Shown: piece after piece, positions 39,078-44,568 of the stretch
Layout: every line of letters starts with the position of its first letter
Position numbering within the stretch: the first letter of the stretch is position 1
Source: Allomuricauda sp. F6463D
GTDB lineage: Bacteria; Bacteroidota; Bacteroidia; Flavobacteriales; Flavobacteriaceae
Length of the DNA stretch: 64,000 bases
NCBI RefSeq assembly: GCF_023015965.1
Contig: NZ_JALKAN010000001.1
Coordinates: forward strand, 372,001-436,000
Direction: 5' to 3'
Made by a program: the position numbers and the translations under genes
Notes under the pieces: model-generated
Seen by the model: only the letters and a program-made list of their open reading frames with translations
The model's database searches: none
Told to the model about the DNA's origin: nothing

Positions 39078-40064
39078 TTATAAAATTATGTTGAACAAAT
39101 AACCTGAAACAATAATACAGAGGGTCACTACTCCAAAAAATATTCCGATCAATTTAAGGGTCATTACCTTTTTAAGTAACATAGCCTCTGGTAGGGATAG
39201 ACCCACCACTCCCATCATAAAAGCAATTGCAGTTCCCAATGGAATTCCCTTTGCTACCAAAACTTGAACAATAGGTAATATTCCGGAAGCATTGGAATAC
39301 ATGGGAACGGCAAAAATAGTGGCAAGCGGCACTGCAAATAAATTGTCCTTCGCCATATAGGTTTCAAAAAATCCTTCTGGAATATAGCCGTGCATTAGCC
39401 CTCCGATGGCTATCCCAATAATCACATAGGGCAGGACACCCTTTAAAATTTTAAGAGCTTCGTGCCAAATTATGGGCAACCGTTCTCTAAAAGTTTGTTT
39501 TTCGTCTTCAAACCTCTTTTGGTCTCTCTGGGCGTTCGAAAGTACTTCCCTTACCCAAGGTGTAAGGTGTTTTTCCAACTTTAACTTTTGGAGTATCAGA
39601 CCTGCTATTGTTCCCAAAACCACTCCACTAACTGCATAAATAATAGTGGTTTTTATACCAAATAGACCTATGAACAAGCCTATTGCAATCTCATTCACAA
39701 GTGGTGAAGTCACCAAAAACGCAAAAGTTACCCCTAAGGGAATGCCTCCTCTTACAAATCCTATGAAAAGAGGCACGGAGGAACAGGAACAAAACGGGGT
39801 GACTACTCCAAAAAGGCTGGCCATTAAATATTCGGCCCCATAGAGTTTATTTCTGGAAAGGTAATTTTTTACACGGTCTATGGGAAAGTAACTGTTGATT
39901 ATGCCCATTAAGAACACCACTGTAAAGAGCAGTATCAATATTTTGATACTGTCATAAACAAAAAACTCTAAGGCTTTGGCCAAATGTTCTTGGGGATGCA
40001 TCCCAATAACATCATACACCAACCATTGGGCCATGTGTTCCAACCAATCAAACACTAGGTTCAA
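39078..40064 (-). CDS. Permease of the DUF318/ArsP-like family
   Basis: A 328-residue polytopic membrane protein with about eight to ten helices. The family motif TPFCSCSSVPLFIGFVRGGIP near residue 92 holds the cysteines that define these permeases. A second half repeats the pattern (VPMYSNASGILPIVQVLVAKGIP) without cysteines. Members export organoarsenicals or unidentified thiol-linked substrates. The gene overlaps the OsmC gene by 17 bases and belongs to an operon with OsmC and a small thioredoxin, suggesting export or repair linked to thiol stress. Confidence 0.9.
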   Translation of the reverse strand: MNLVFDWLEHMAQWLVYDVIGMHPQEHLAKALEFFVYDSIKILILLFTVVFLMGIINSYFPIDRVKNYLSRNKLYGAEYLMASLFGVVTPFCSCSSVPLFIGFVRGGIPLGVTFAFLVTSPLVNEIAIGLFIGLFGIKTTIIYAVSGVVLGTIAGLILQKLKLEKHLTPWVREVLSNAQRDQKRFEDEKQTFRERLPIIWHEALKILKGVLPYVIIGIAIGGLMHGYIPEGFFETYMAKDNLFAVPLATIFAVPMYSNASGILPIVQVLVAKGIPLGTAIAFMMGVVGLSLPEAMLLKKVMTLKLIGIFFGVVTLCIIVSGYLFNIIL

Positions 40065-40455
40065 CTTTTATGGTTCCGGATATGGTACACACTTGTTTTA
40101 TGGTATTATAGATGGTCCCGAATTTTTCCAAATTTTTTTGTAAAAGTTTCGTGTTTAGGTTCTGATCCTGACTGTAAATGGTCAATTCGTAAAAAATATC
40201 GTCCATTCTTGGTGGTTCATCGAGTCTTTGGGCGTTGATGACAATATTTGCTTTTAAGTAATCAAATTTTAAAAGTCTAGAAAAGCGTTCTACATTTTTT
40301 AGAATACAAGAAGCCAAAGACCCTAGGAATATTTCTGCAGGATTCACCATACTATCTTCGGTACTAGATGTGGTGCCAAACTCAAAAACGGAGTTTTTAA
40401 CAGTTATTGAGCCGCTATCGTCCGCTACGGATGTTGCTTTTATGTGGTAACTCAT
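40048..40455 (-). CDS. OsmC-family protein
   Basis: A 135-residue protein from the ATG at 40455, beginning MSYHIKATSV. The AEIFLGSLASCILKNVERFSRLLKF helix holds the catalytic-type cysteine of the OsmC/Ohr fold; the second cysteine is in KQVCTISGTIKV near the C-terminus. These are thiol peroxidases acting on organic hydroperoxides. The frame opens at 40482, but that would overlap the thioredoxin gene, while 40455 leaves an 11-base gap. It is followed by an overlapping permease gene in the same operon. Confidence 0.9.
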   Translation of the reverse strand: MSYHIKATSVADDSGSITVKNSVFEFGTTSSTEDSMVNPAEIFLGSLASCILKNVERFSRLLKFDYLKANIVINAQRLDEPPRMDDIFYELTIYSQDQNLNTKLLQKNLEKFGTIYNTIKQVCTISGTIKVEPSV

Positions 40456-40466
40456 ACTTGGTCTAT

Positions 40467-40706
40467 TTATTTTTGAAGCCAACTTATAATTTCGGTTATA
40501 GAGGGTACTCTTCCTTTGGAGACCACATTGCCATCAATTACCAAGGCTGGGGTCAACATTACATCGAATTTCATGATTTCCGCTATATCCTCCACTTTAT
40601 CTATGGAGGCATCAATCTGATGTTGATTTACAGCTTCTTTTACAACATTGGTCAGGTTTTGACATTTGGGACAACCTGTACCCAGAATTTGAATGGAATG
40701 TTTCAT
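40467..40706 (-). CDS. Small thioredoxin-fold redox protein
   Basis: A 79-residue thioredoxin-like protein with CPKC active site at residues 12-15 and the cis-proline segment MLTPALVIDG. It corresponds to the redox-active disulfide protein 2 family, often found beside DUF318 permeases and sometimes called permease-associated thioredoxin. It is the first gene of the thioredoxin-OsmC-permease operon and probably passes electrons or substrate to the other two. A CRP/FNR-type palindrome lies about 135 bases upstream of the start. Confidence 0.92.
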   Translation of the reverse strand: MKHSIQILGTGCPKCQNLTNVVKEAVNQHQIDASIDKVEDIAEIMKFDVMLTPALVIDGNVVSKGRVPSITEIISWLQK

Positions 40707-40810
40707 CTTATGATAATATTGGTAGAAAATTATTGTTTGAAATTTGTTTGTTCACCAATTTTCTTGATGTGATATTTAATACGCTGAACCACCTCTTGTA
40801 TCCTTTATCG

Positions 40811-40818
40811 CAAATTTA
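40811..40818 (-). promoter_or_regulatory. Putative -7 element of the thioredoxin-OsmC-permease operon
   Basis: The minus strand reads TAAATTTG, matching the Bacteroidota -7 consensus TAnnTTTG, with a TTG 16 bases further upstream (40837-40835). The predicted start site near 40805 leaves a leader of about 100 bases. Confidence 0.5.
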
Positions 40819-40839
40819 CGATGAACAATAAACACAAAA

Positions 40840-40855
40840 TGTGACATAAGTCACA
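40840..40855. promoter_or_regulatory. Perfect CRP/FNR-type palindrome TGTGA-N6-TCACA
   Basis: TGTGACATAAGTCACA has both half sites intact with the standard six-base spacer. Its centre is about 42 bases upstream of the start site predicted from the -7 element at 40811-40818, the position used by class II CRP/FNR activators. It precedes the thioredoxin-OsmC-permease operon. Confidence 0.65.
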
Positions 40856-40938
40856 AATCACAAATTTTTGATGCTAATTAGAAAAATAGGATTACAATGA
40901 TAATGGAGGGGGTAAGGCTATTTAAATTGATATGAGAA

Positions 40939-41805
40939 TCATTTTAAATATTCTTTTAAACAGTCTACTTTAGATGATTTCCTTAATCGAGCCAAGGCTT
41001 TTATTTTTATTTGTCTAACTCGTTCAGTCGTTAGACCAAGATTTTGGGCTATTTGTTCCAATTCAATCCTGTCGTTAGCGCCAATTCCAAAATACATTTT
41101 AATGATAGAGACTTCACGATTGGACAGTATTTTCAAAACATTGTCAATTTCAAATTTTAACGACCCTTTGATTAAGTTATCTTCTGGAGAATTGGAACTT
41201 TCTGAACGAATAAGGTCGTGCAGGTTGAACCCATCATCATCATTCTTTAAAGCTTCATCCATTGAAATGGGCCACGAAGAATGTTTTAAGCAAAGTTGAA
41301 TTTCCGGTAGTGTAGAATCTATTAATTCAGATATTTCTTCTGCGGTAGGTGGCCTTTGGTTAATTTGCTCGAAATGTGTAGAGGCGCGGTTAATTTTATT
41401 TATGACATTTATTTTGTTCAAAGGCAATCTTACCATTCTTGATTTTTCGGAAAGTGCCTGTATAATTCCTTGTCGTATCCACCATACCGCATAGGAAATA
41501 AACTTGAAGCCCCGCGTTTCATCAAATTTTTTCGCAGCTTTTACCAAACCAAGATTACCTTCATTAATTAGGTCATGCAGATTTAGTCCCCGTGATTGGT
41601 ATTGCTTGGCAACTGATACTACAAATCGTAGATTGGATCTGATCAGTTTTTCCAATGCGAAAACATCCCCATTTCTTATTCGTATGGCCAATTCAACCTC
41701 TTCTTCTTCCGTAATCATTGGAATACGGGCTATATCACTAAAATAAAGAGTAAGAGACGGAGTGTCCCTTTTTGTTATCTGTTTGGATATAGATAGCGGT
41801 CTCAT
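40939..41805 (-). CDS. Divergent RpoD-like sigma-70 factor
   Basis: A 288-residue sigma factor with regions 1.2 to 4 and no region 1.1, the size of the flavobacterial housekeeping factor. Region 2 shows NLRFVVSVAKQYQSRGLNLHDLINEGNLG and GFKFISYAVWWIRQGIIQAL; region 4.2 has LGLTTERVRQIKIKALARL. Compared with the RpoD sequence I know from this group, many positions differ (for example IARIPMITEEEEVELA and the region 3 to 4 linker), so it is probably a second, group-2-like factor. It is the last gene of an operon with an NYN protein and a bS21 paralogue, 16 bases after the former. Confidence 0.85.
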   Translation of the reverse strand: MRPLSISKQITKRDTPSLTLYFSDIARIPMITEEEEVELAIRIRNGDVFALEKLIRSNLRFVVSVAKQYQSRGLNLHDLINEGNLGLVKAAKKFDETRGFKFISYAVWWIRQGIIQALSEKSRMVRLPLNKINVINKINRASTHFEQINQRPPTAEEISELIDSTLPEIQLCLKHSSWPISMDEALKNDDDGFNLHDLIRSESSNSPEDNLIKGSLKFEIDNVLKILSNREVSIIKMYFGIGANDRIELEQIAQNLGLTTERVRQIKIKALARLRKSSKVDCLKEYLK

Positions 41806-41821
41806 AGCTCTTACTTTTATA

Positions 41822-42556
41822 TTACGTTTTTGTTCTCACATAAATGAGGTTACCGTTTCCTTTTGGATTTTTTCTGGAACCTATTTCAATTTGATTCAAA
41901 GATTTGACCAAAGGTGTCAACTTTCTGAATCCATAATTTCTCGCATCAAAATTTGGCTGTTTTTTTTGGAGCAATGTGCCTACCTCTCCTAAAAACGCCC
42001 AACCTTCTTCATCTTCAACATCGGTAATGGTACTAAGAATAAGGTCGATTACTTTTGGTGTAATTTTATCAATTTTGCCCTTATCGTTCTTTTGTGGTGT
42101 GTTTGGCTCCCCTATATTCGATTTTTGTAGTATTTCCAGATAAATAAATTTATCACAAGAGACAATAAAAGGATCGGGAGTCTTTCTTTCACCAATGCCA
42201 AAAACCGTCATCCCGGCCTCTCTTAATCGTATGGCCAATCGAGTAAAATCACTATCACTGGACACCAAAGAAAAACCATTGACCTTTCCCGAATAAAGAA
42301 TGTCCATGGCATCTATGATCATAGCACTGTCAGTAGCATTTTTACCGGTCGTATATCCATACTGCTGAACGGGTGTAATAGCATTTTTAAGAAGGACATC
42401 TTTCCATTTCCCCAAATTGGGTTTCGTCCAATCTCCGTAGATTCTTTTAATACTCGGGTTCCCGTACTTTGCAATCTCCTCCAGCATTTCCTTGACATAT
42501 TTTGAGGGGATATTGTCGCCATCTATTAATACGGCGATATTTAAATCCTTGTCCAT
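41822..42556 (-). CDS. NYN-domain putative RNase with C-terminal LOTUS/OST-HTH domain
   Basis: A 244-residue protein. Residues 5-140 are an NYN (PIN-like) nuclease domain of the LabA/DUF88 type, with acidic active-site residues in LIDGDN (D12, D14), NATDSAMIIDAMD (D76, D82) and SSDSDF (D101, D103). Residues 165-243 resemble an OST-HTH/LOTUS domain (EGWAFLGEVGTLLQKKQPNF), a fold that binds RNA. It probably cleaves or binds RNA. It begins four bases after the bS21 paralogue and ends 16 before the sigma factor, occupying the position of dnaG in the classical rpsU-dnaG-rpoD operon. Confidence 0.88.
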   Translation of the reverse strand: MDKDLNIAVLIDGDNIPSKYVKEMLEEIAKYGNPSIKRIYGDWTKPNLGKWKDVLLKNAITPVQQYGYTTGKNATDSAMIIDAMDILYSGKVNGFSLVSSDSDFTRLAIRLREAGMTVFGIGERKTPDPFIVSCDKFIYLEILQKSNIGEPNTPQKNDKGKIDKITPKVIDLILSTITDVEDEEGWAFLGEVGTLLQKKQPNFDARNYGFRKLTPLVKSLNQIEIGSRKNPKGNGNLIYVRTKT

Positions 42557-42560
42557 AAAA

Positions 42561-42755
42561 TTATTCTTCGTTCCTCTTCATGTACTCATTTTTATAGACG
42601 GCCTTTGCCAGAAGTTCTCTTCTTTCCTTGGATTTTTTAGTAAATTCTTGGTTGTCCCTAATATTTTTCAGTTGCTTGGTGTTTCGAACCTTATTTCTAT
42701 ATCTTTTCAAAGCTCTTTCTATGTTCTCACCTGGAACCAATTTAATTTTAAGCAT
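42561..42755 (-). CDS. rpsU: Ribosomal protein bS21, probably a divergent paralogue
   Basis: A 64-residue basic protein, MLKIKLVPGENIERALKRYRNK at the start, which is the bS21 signature (GENIERALKRYKRK in typical members). The C-terminal half (KKSKERRELLAKAVYKNEYMKRNEE) departs from the FTKPSVxRR pattern I expect for the main flavobacterial bS21, so I read it as a second copy. In Bacteroidota bS21 helps sequester the anti-Shine-Dalgarno end of 16S rRNA. No purine-rich Shine-Dalgarno sequence precedes this start. It is first in the operon with the NYN and sigma genes. Confidence 0.85.
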   Translation of the reverse strand: MLKIKLVPGENIERALKRYRNKVRNTKQLKNIRDNQEFTKKSKERRELLAKAVYKNEYMKRNEE

Positions 42756-43111
42756 ATCTAATGTTTATTGAATTATTATGAATATGGCCATAGAACAATG
42801 CTGTTTTTAGCATGATCCGAAGTATCCAAGAAATATGTAGATTTCTTGACCAGTAGAATTTTTAGACTTTGTCCTCGCCGGCCTTTTATGAGGGTATTGA
42901 TACAAGCAAAAAATAGTAAGAAACAGCTCTGGCTATTTGGAAATGAGTAGTGGAGAGCTATCTTTTTATTTAAGGATTGGAGCAATCGTTGTCCTTAATA
43001 CATCATGGATTGTAAAGGAAAGGATTTAAATTGAGAGTACCCCTGTTTATTTTATTTATTTAACAAAGAGCTAAGATGGTTTTTCCAATCATTAATAATT
43101 TAATGATGCGA
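42756..43111. other. Leader/promoter region of the bS21-NYN-sigma operon
   Basis: These 356 bases between mnmE and the bS21 paralogue hold no convincing gene. On the transcribed side lie small hairpins: ATGCT/AGCAT at 42798-42813 and a perfect 8-bp stem, CAAGAAAT/ATTTCTTG, at 42827-42848. They could form a structured leader. Another inverted repeat (ATCATTAA/TTAATGAT) lies near 43090-43110 just after mnmE. Confidence 0.45.
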
Positions 43112-44482
43112 TTATTTCCCGATACAGAAATTAGAAAAAATATTCCCTAATAGATCATCGGTGGTCACACTCCCAGTAATTTCTCCCAGATGATAGAGTG
43201 CCTGTCGGATATCTATGGCCATAAGGTCACTGGAAAGTTCCATATCCAACCCTTCTTTTACCTTTTGTATTTCTTCCAGAGCTTTTAGCAAAGCATCATA
43301 ATGCCTGCTATTGGTGATGATGGTGGTATCACCACTCAACGCTCCGGAATCCACTAATGATAAAAGTTTGCTCTCCAATTCGGAAATGCCAGTTTTGTAT
43401 TTTGCTGATAATAACAGCACGTTGGGGATTTCTTCTTTGACTTTATTTATTTGCTTCTCGTTCAGAAGGTCCATTTTATTGCAGATGGGCAGCAATTGCT
43501 TGTTGGGATATCGATTTTGGATTTGTTCCAATTCCGCCTTATCAAAATCCAAACCATCAAAAAGGTAAATGATTAGCCGTGCCTTTTCAATTTTATCAAA
43601 TGTCCGTTCAATACCAATTTTTTCAACTACATCTTCCGTTTCACGTATTCCAGCGGTATCTATGAACCTGAAATTTATACCTTTTAAACTAATATGATCT
43701 TCAACCGTGTCTCGTGTGGTTCCTGCAATTTCACTTACAATGGCACGTTCCTCATTGAGCAAGACATTTAATAATGTGGATTTTCCAACATTGGGTTGCC
43801 CCACTATGGCCACCGGGATTCCATTTTTAATCACATTGCCCAATGCAAAAGAATCAATCAACTTTTTAAGCACTTCGCTAATTCTGGTAAGCAGTTCGTT
43901 GAACTGGGTCCTATCTGCAAATTCTACATCTTCTTGTGAAAAATCGAGTTCCAGTTCAATAAGCGAAGCAAAATTCAAGAGTTCTTGTCGTAGTTCTTGA
44001 ATTTCGTTGCTGAATCCCCCTCTCATTTGTTGCATGGCAATATCATGGGCCGCTTCGCTATCACTTGCAATAAGGTCGGCAACAGCTTCTGCCTGACTGA
44101 GATCCATTTTACCATTTAAAAATGCCCTGAGTGTAAATTCTCCTGCGGATGCTGCACGACAGCCATTCCTAAGTAACAGTTGAATGATCTGCTGTTGGAT
44201 AAAGGGTGAGCCATGACACGAAATTTCAATAACGTTTTCACCGGTGTAGGAATGTGGTCCTTTAAAAATGGAAACCAAGGCTTCATCCAAAATCTTATCA
44301 CCATCTACAATATTGCCCAAATGAATGGTGTGGCTTTTCTGTTGTTGCAGTTTTTTTCCTTTAATGGATTTAAAAAGTGTATCCACCAAGGTAATGGCGT
44401 CTGGGCCCGAAACTCGGATGACTGCTATGGCTCCTGTTCCCGAAGGTGTTGCTAGGGCTACAATGTTATCTGTGTACGACAT
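43112..44482 (-). CDS. mnmE: tRNA uridine-5-carboxymethylaminomethyl modification GTPase MnmE
   Basis: A 456-residue protein with the N-terminal tetrahydrofolate-binding domain (DNIVALATPSGTGAIAVIRVSG), helical domain and an inserted G domain: GQPNVGKSTLLN (G1), TTRDT (G2), DTAG (G3) and NKMD (G4). The C-terminal FCIGK carries the catalytic cysteine. With MnmG it modifies U34 of certain tRNAs. The frame is open to 44518, but the ATG at 44482 (MSYTDNIV) gives the normal N-terminus. It is transcribed on its own, upstream of the bS21 operon on the same strand. Confidence 0.95.
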   Translation of the reverse strand: MSYTDNIVALATPSGTGAIAVIRVSGPDAITLVDTLFKSIKGKKLQQQKSHTIHLGNIVDGDKILDEALVSIFKGPHSYTGENVIEISCHGSPFIQQQIIQLLLRNGCRAASAGEFTLRAFLNGKMDLSQAEAVADLIASDSEAAHDIAMQQMRGGFSNEIQELRQELLNFASLIELELDFSQEDVEFADRTQFNELLTRISEVLKKLIDSFALGNVIKNGIPVAIVGQPNVGKSTLLNVLLNEERAIVSEIAGTTRDTVEDHISLKGINFRFIDTAGIRETEDVVEKIGIERTFDKIEKARLIIYLFDGLDFDKAELEQIQNRYPNKQLLPICNKMDLLNEKQINKVKEEIPNVLLLSAKYKTGISELESKLLSLVDSGALSGDTTIITNSRHYDALLKALEEIQKVKEGLDMELSSDLMAIDIRQALYHLGEITGSVTTDDLLGNIFSNFCIGK

Positions 44483-44568
44483 GGGGCAAAAGTACAAATT
44501 AGCTGGTGGTTGTAACATTTTTAATGTTTTGTATACTGATATATTGAATCATCAAAATCAATCAAAAA

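Follow-up and report, generated by a model that had tools for sequence, protein, structure and literature searches.

Whether bacteria purposely build specialised ribosomes is an open question, for which ribosomal protein bS21, which helps to cover the anti-Shine-Dalgarno sequence in Bacteroidia, is a prime candidate. The locus described here unites a bS21 gene in one tight array with genes for a putative RNase and a sigma factor. It is located in the window, i.e. the entire analysed stretch of 64,000 nucleotides from Allomuricauda sp. F6463D. A preliminary description had likened the array to the macromolecular synthesis operon rpsU-dnaG-rpoD, in which bS21 comes first, primase second and sigma-70 last on one strand, and had proposed that it might form a switchable package acting jointly on translation, RNA decay and transcription. 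The locus, termed cassette in the following, comprises these features:

43012-43030, minus strand: conserved box TTTAAATCCTTTCCTTTAC directly upstream of the hairpin element, putative promoter recognised by the cassette sigma factor
42891-43002, minus strand: conserved element of about 110 nt with two hairpins, the second closing in a T-run (alignment and covariance model)
42561-42755, minus strand: bS21 paralogue of 64 aa with Tyr at position 54 and without Shine-Dalgarno (SD) sequence (ORF, Pfam and NCBIfam)
41822-42556, minus strand: protein of 244 aa with NYN (aa 6-141) and OST-HTH/LOTUS (aa 164-232) domains, predicted RNase (Pfam)
40939-41805, minus strand: RpoD-like alternative sigma factor of 288 aa with regions 1.2, 2, 3 and 4 (Pfam, NCBIfam and tree)

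The three genes and their counterparts in the genome

Open reading frames and Pfam domains agree with the three tightly packed genes of the preliminary description, which are separated by gaps of 4 bases (bS21/NYN-LOTUS) and 16 bases (NYN-LOTUS/sigma). The cassette is flanked by mnmE (43112-44518, name read from the translation) on one side and a thioredoxin-OsmC-permease group on the other; between positions 40550 and 43099, G+C amounts to 0.335-0.367 in the cassette blocks versus 0.379-0.405 in the surrounding ones. A perfect palindrome (TGTGACATAAGTCACA, 40840-40855), presumably of the Crp/Fnr-site kind, is located between the sigma and thioredoxin genes.

Divergence of bS21 and sigma from the main copies, as proposed earlier, was borne out for both proteins, and the search for a second rpsU and rpoD revealed three bS21 and three RpoD-like genes in the genome. 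The window bS21 reached 40.8 bits with Pfam Ribosomal_S21 (cut-off 27) and 24 bits with the NCBIfam S21p equivalog, i.e. less than the cut-off of 28.95, and is therefore a paralogue rather than the standard copy. It shares 41% identity with the main bS21, encoded by an rpsU followed by xerC- and hpf-like genes. The second other bS21 gene is located between an acetyltransferase-like gene and, past a short ORF, a proC-like gene. Pairing with the 16S tail, the sequence of which was taken from outside the assembly (a 16-mer of the 16S 3' end had 0 matches there), amounted to -17.5 kcal/mol for the extended SD of the main rpsU, to -3.0 kcal/mol for the SD-less second other gene and to -0.4 kcal/mol for the last 24 bases of the window bS21 leader. 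The claimed lack of an SD at this start thus holds, and the extended SD with strong anti-SD pairing, the hallmark of SD-autoregulated rpsU, is absent here.

According to excerpts of PMC9976891, Tyr54 of Flavobacterium johnsoniae bS21 stacks on A1534 and helps to redirect the 16S tail. Residue 54 is aromatic in all 25 distinct cassette bS21 proteins of the genus (17 Tyr, 8 His); among 82 bS21 proteins labelled sigma-linked or unlinked, it is Tyr in 76, His in 4 and Phe in 2, with the label "unlinked" being wrong for L168, L171, L172 and L174-L176 (the adjacency counts given below, 46 of 86, do not use this label). Since the aromatic residue is kept, the paralogue should still cover the anti-SD. 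It is a putative ribosomal constituent that may substitute for the main protein in the 30S subunit. As far as the excerpted text of PMC9976891 allows comparison, the window protein shares with the SD-autoregulated F. johnsoniae rpsU product its Bacteroidia origin, the aromatic residue 54 and the expected anti-SD coverage, whereas it differs by the lack of an SD and by the linkage to an RNase and a sigma factor. In the groups with several bS21 genes listed in these excerpts, Bacteroidota are not named. Several bS21 homologues per genome are likewise described, in the available part of PMC9578407, for Francisella and reported to make its ribosomes heterogeneous; a sigma-RNase cassette is not described there, the two systems being compared by description.

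The middle protein markedly exceeded the Pfam cut-offs for NYN (134.1 vs 24.2 bits) and OST-HTH (63 vs 23.8 bits). Seven aspartates, which we take to be the nuclease active site of the NYN family, are invariant among the aligned homologues (D12 and D14 in 167/167; D76, D82, D85, D101 and D103 in 168/168, duplicates from overlapping loci included), and the protein is predicted to be an RNase. It is the only OST-HTH protein of its genome. The two-domain architecture corresponds to that of bacterial NYN/DUF88 proteins with OST-HTH, for which the sections available of PMC2848206 predict RNase function and binding of dsRNA by the winged helix. These proteins, according to the same sections, lack conserved gene neighbourhoods with further known systems of RNA processing, whereas the window NYN-LOTUS gene is fixed in a bS21-sigma cassette. 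A survey of 296 genomes of the order detected NYN-LOTUS in 54. Among 80 named NYN loci, 8 harbour the complete cassette (under the labels Allomuricauda, [Muricauda] or Muricauda, Flagellimonas, Croceivirga). In one further locus (Winogradskyella tangerina), bS21-NYN is accompanied by a sigma gene located 2 kb away on the opposite strand. At the remaining 71, the stretch examined contains no bS21 and no sigma gene, so that NYN-LOTUS usually occurs without these partners.

The third protein belongs to the sigma-70 family, with regions 1.2, 2, 3 and 4 all above the Pfam cut-off; in the listed 25 of 53 NCBIfam families, it reached none of the equivalog cut-offs for RpoD or RpoS. It is 55% identical to each of the other two RpoD-like proteins, one encoded in a pnp-rpoD-rpe locus (names read from translations), the other without evident partner. 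It is not the housekeeping RpoD, as the listed cut-offs were not reached and the pnp-rpoD-rpe locus is occupied by another gene. Identity of the cassette sigmas to RpoD is highest in regions 2.3-2.4 (84%) and 2.1-2.2 (75%), followed by 1.2 (55%), 4.2 (54%), 4.1 (43%) and 3 (38%), sub-region limits being set by the authors; the recognition helix reads LTTERVRQ in cassette sigmas and LTRERVRQ in RpoD. The cassette sigma may therefore have kept the -7-reading part of RpoD while its reading of the -33 region is probably altered. An RpoD homologue beside the housekeeping one also occurs in Dokdonia; in the excerpts of PMC3587595 its promoter sequence is reported as unknown and, in distinction to the window gene, linkage to bS21 is not mentioned.

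Distribution, address and rate of change

A window-type sigma (match at 62% identity or more) was found in 29 of 60 sampled genomes of the genus (Flagellimonas/[Muricauda]-like; 28 of 59 without the own genome), two of which (G523 and G509) have two such matches each. The linkage anticipated in relatives is present, with 26 of the 29 genomes, own included, displaying the order bS21-NYN-sigma. The 28 other loci examined in the genus comprise 25 with full order (in one, L339, the sigma match is split over two frames), one without NYN (L313), one with sigma alone (L334) and one with an NYN fragment (L336). Beyond the genus, the same order is found in L144, L145 and L147, bS21-sigma in L143, NYN followed by bS21-sigma in L010, and NYN, sigma, bS21 in L054 and L057. 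The NYN gene is dispensable, since it is absent from L313, L143 and L334 and fragmentary in L336, L345 and L346.

The position of the cassette was compared between 18 genomes of the genus and the window (171 pairs), with rpoD of these 18 genomes (153 pairs) as control. The upstream neighbour gene is common to 12 of 171 cassette pairs versus 153 of 153 rpoD pairs, and the downstream neighbour to 11 of 171 versus 41 of 153, the last value showing that the downstream side of rpoD varies, too. Sorting the 19 cassettes by neighbour gives 11 groups upstream and 13 downstream. The same cassette hence occupies unrelated addresses in related genomes, as expected of a mobile or transferred cassette; none of its three genes encodes an integrase or transposase, and it does not qualify as an autonomous mobile element. 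The adjoining thioredoxin-OsmC-permease group (39078-40706) is itself patchy in the genus: permease matches occur in 22 of 60 genomes, 8 of the 24 matches having only 44-46% identity, and most of the permease loci fetched show no OsmC match beside the permease. A comparison with empty sites via the downstream permease gave no result, because the group is missing or located elsewhere in many genomes of the genus.

Among the 18 genomes with both genes (153 pairs), RpoD identity ranges from 98.6 to 100% (median 99.3), that of the cassette sigma from 56.9 to 98.6% (median 69.8) and that of the cassette bS21 from 48.4 to 100% (median 73.4); sigma is less conserved than RpoD in every one of the 153 pairs. 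For sigma, dN/dS lies at 0.02-0.11 and for bS21 at 0-0.14 (12 pairs each; dS is saturated, above 1, in several, and one bS21 pair is identical). The cassette proteins evolve fast but constrained. Recurrent gene order and low dN/dS confirm that the three-gene arrangement is more than chance. Adaptive arms-race evolution of the cassette was also considered and is ruled out by the low dN/dS, even though the proteins diverge fast.

Relatives of the window bS21 were found on 55 viral contigs (L178-L232; best segment 42-67% identical), with no sigma or NYN match in the stretches fetched. A special link between cassette and phage bS21 was rejected, as 9 of 10 viral proteins included in the tree (from the 55 loci) form a separate clade and no sigma or NYN match turned up at the 55 loci. 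A defence or conflict module, in which sigma, RNase and the spare bS21 would shield gene expression from phages or other elements, would agree with the patchy presence (29/60), the moving addresses, the RNase-like protein and the existence of phages with bS21, also the subject of a published study. Purifying selection with no fast adaptive change and the 55 viral loci without a sigma or NYN match argue against such a function, which we regard as quite improbable.

The upstream box and hairpin element

The hairpin element ends 135 nt before the bS21 start. The box (TTTAAATCC-TTTCCTTTAC, with variants) and the following element of about 110 nt ending in a T-run are common to 29 aligned sequences, including L143 and L010 from other genera. 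The box also precedes the element in L334, L336, L345, L346 and L337; a pattern search overlooked it at five loci, for which the alignment contains it in the locus itself or in an identical twin. The genome contains a single exact match, and allowing up to 3 mismatches in the 19-base box yielded 8 matches versus 4 for the reversed control; the box therefore has no clear regulon.

A covariance model built from 14 of the aligned sequences gave E values below 0.001 for 38 of 81 sources, one of them the window itself. The remaining 43, among them all sigma-before-bS21 loci tested (see below), yielded no match. Applied with stricter filters to 149 genomes of the family, it recovered the own genome and two others (L345 and L346), in which sigma, box and element are kept and bS21 and most of NYN are gone. 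The same three parts are kept in L336, with an NYN fragment, and in L334, with no NYN. Box, element and sigma thus remain together after loss of bS21 and of the whole or most of NYN.

Across an alignment of 35 element matches, pairing is seen in 91.9% of cells and change on both sides in 13 of 26 pairs, values reached by 0 of 500 shuffles and opposed to 41-55% and 3-6 pairs for slides; the alignment was fitted to the model structure, the 14 training sequences are among, or nearly the same as, the 35, and the 35 were chosen for an earlier match or for carrying a window-type sigma. Folding of single sequences (five elements) was no better than that of shuffles, and RNAalifold on an unfitted MAFFT alignment of the element found no pairs, which we ascribe to misaligned stems. 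Rfam returned no family at the element and, in the rest of 40400-43400, a single match at chance level (E 0.48); the left arm of the element has one exact copy in the genome. Scans for sigma-70 promoters and terminators remained at chance level. Excerpts of PMC3587595 give TTGNTANNTTTG as the flavobacterial promoter consensus; TAnnTTTG is absent from the 400 bases before the window bS21.

The element could alternatively represent a DNA-level recombination (hairpin) site of a moving cassette rather than an RNA leader, the genes being largely passengers or redundant paralogues. Imperfect inverted repeats with variable loop, one per cassette, and the changing addresses would suit such a site, as would the tRNA genes that precede bS21 by 0.4-1.1 kb in 4 of 19 loci (farther off and on the other side in a fifth) and recombinase-like genes near L235/L426, L336 and L346. 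However, the element occurs at a single end, is separated from the first gene by a similar distance and comes with a conserved unpaired box, it stays before sigma after loss of the genes between, and those few loci are the only ones with a recombinase-like gene nearby (three query proteins). Low dN/dS speaks against passenger genes, and we consider this explanation distinctly unlikely.

Box, hairpin element, bS21, NYN-LOTUS and RpoD-like sigma are kept together under purifying selection while the address changes. The best explanation, put forward tentatively and with somewhat less than even confidence, is a horizontally moving expression-switch cassette, in which an alternative sigma factor would drive its own unit, with SD-independent bS21 and RNase as probable effectors. 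On the most economical view, the core consists of box, element and sigma, the effectors bS21 and RNase being detachable. Kept -7 and altered -33 reading would let the sigma factor serve promoters of its own, the first target being the box before its own cassette, resulting in positive autoregulation. The element, if transcribed, would form a structured leader setting read-through or message stability. Lacking the extended SD of the main rpsU, the bS21 paralogue could be made outside the circuit of bS21-depleted ribosomes, and its changed N-terminal strand and C-terminal helix might confer another mRNA preference on the 30S platform. Switching on the cassette would then jointly change which promoters are used, how RNA decays and how ribosomes are composed. 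From the sequences we infer autoregulation, transcription of the element, a target of the RNase and ribosome exchange; the coupled package proposed in the preliminary description fits the anatomy of the cassette.

Pairing of bS21 and sigma genes across the family

A bS21 match was detected in 191 of 199 genomes of the family, all from different genera, and two or three in 74 (own genome included). At 86 paralogous bS21 loci (own genome excluded), selected as the best matches of the window bS21 rather than at random, a sigma-70 gene adjoins in 46: upstream on the same strand in 39 (gaps 12-237) and downstream in 7, one at 1385 bases. The other 40 show no sigma in the flank examined, with some flanks ending at contig edges. 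Likewise, no sigma match was found at five main xerC-linked bS21 copies. With three sigma genes spread over 3.7 Mb, a rough estimate puts the chance of finding one this close to a given gene at less than 1%. The sigma-before-bS21 arrangement is found repeatedly in a single neighbourhood; in the tree, the majority of its sigmas group separately from RpoD, with modest support (0.77). The pairing is not obligatory, since among 20 chosen genomes three (G061, G034 and G021) have a bS21 paralogue and one sigma match, and four (G032, G100, G118 and G190) two sigmas and one bS21 match.

With respect to the rpsU-dnaG-rpoD operon, the proposed likeness stands for bS21 first, sigma-70 last and the common strand. 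It fails in other respects: primase is missing, the genes at either end are paralogues, NYN can be dispensed with and most linked loci have the opposite order. Homology is ruled out by the missing primase, the paralogous ends and the sigma-before-bS21 order at 39 of 46 linked loci; the likeness is superficial, because the sigma gene is not the pnp-linked rpoD, the commoner order is reversed and NYN can be lost.

A cold- or stress-response module, supplying bS21 and sigma under conditions where the SD-dependent rpsU circuit works poorly, was weighed as a further explanation. It draws on a cold-shock-type small gene directly before the bS21 paralogue in six loci of related type from other genera (L128, L130, L132, L137, L145 and L147), on OST-HTH fused to cold-shock folds, on record in the sections available of PMC2848206, and on the effect of F. 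johnsoniae bS21 on rpsU initiation, stronger at low temperature according to excerpts of PMC9976891. The window cassette, however, lacks a cold-shock gene at that place, and we consider this role unlikely.

Returning to the expression switch, the bS21-sigma adjacency at 46 of the 86 paralogue loci examined across the family suggests a general device. It is conceivable, though less than probable, that one transfer of a mobile sigma with its own box, leader RNA, bS21 and RNase would install a coupled transcription-translation-decay switch and that such bS21-sigma coupling is widespread in Flavobacteriaceae. An SD-free bS21 paralogue tied to an alternative sigma, joined in the window type by an RNase and a conserved putative leader, makes the question of specialised ribosomes testable. 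A literature search covering few subscription papers or preprints, partly as excerpts, yielded no description recognisable as bS21-sigma linkage.

SD pairing energies of the 86 paralogues have a median of -0.9 kcal/mol, versus -17.5 to -22.7 kcal/mol for five main copies. Moderate pairing was observed in L121 (-12.0 kcal/mol), L124 (-10.2 kcal/mol) and L146 (-9.8 kcal/mol), unlike the other 83 paralogues. The commoner locus (L023-L146) is situated between a large gene of membrane-associated type and convergent genes, with a clpX-like gene further on; at this same place, sigma appears to be present or missing in different genera.
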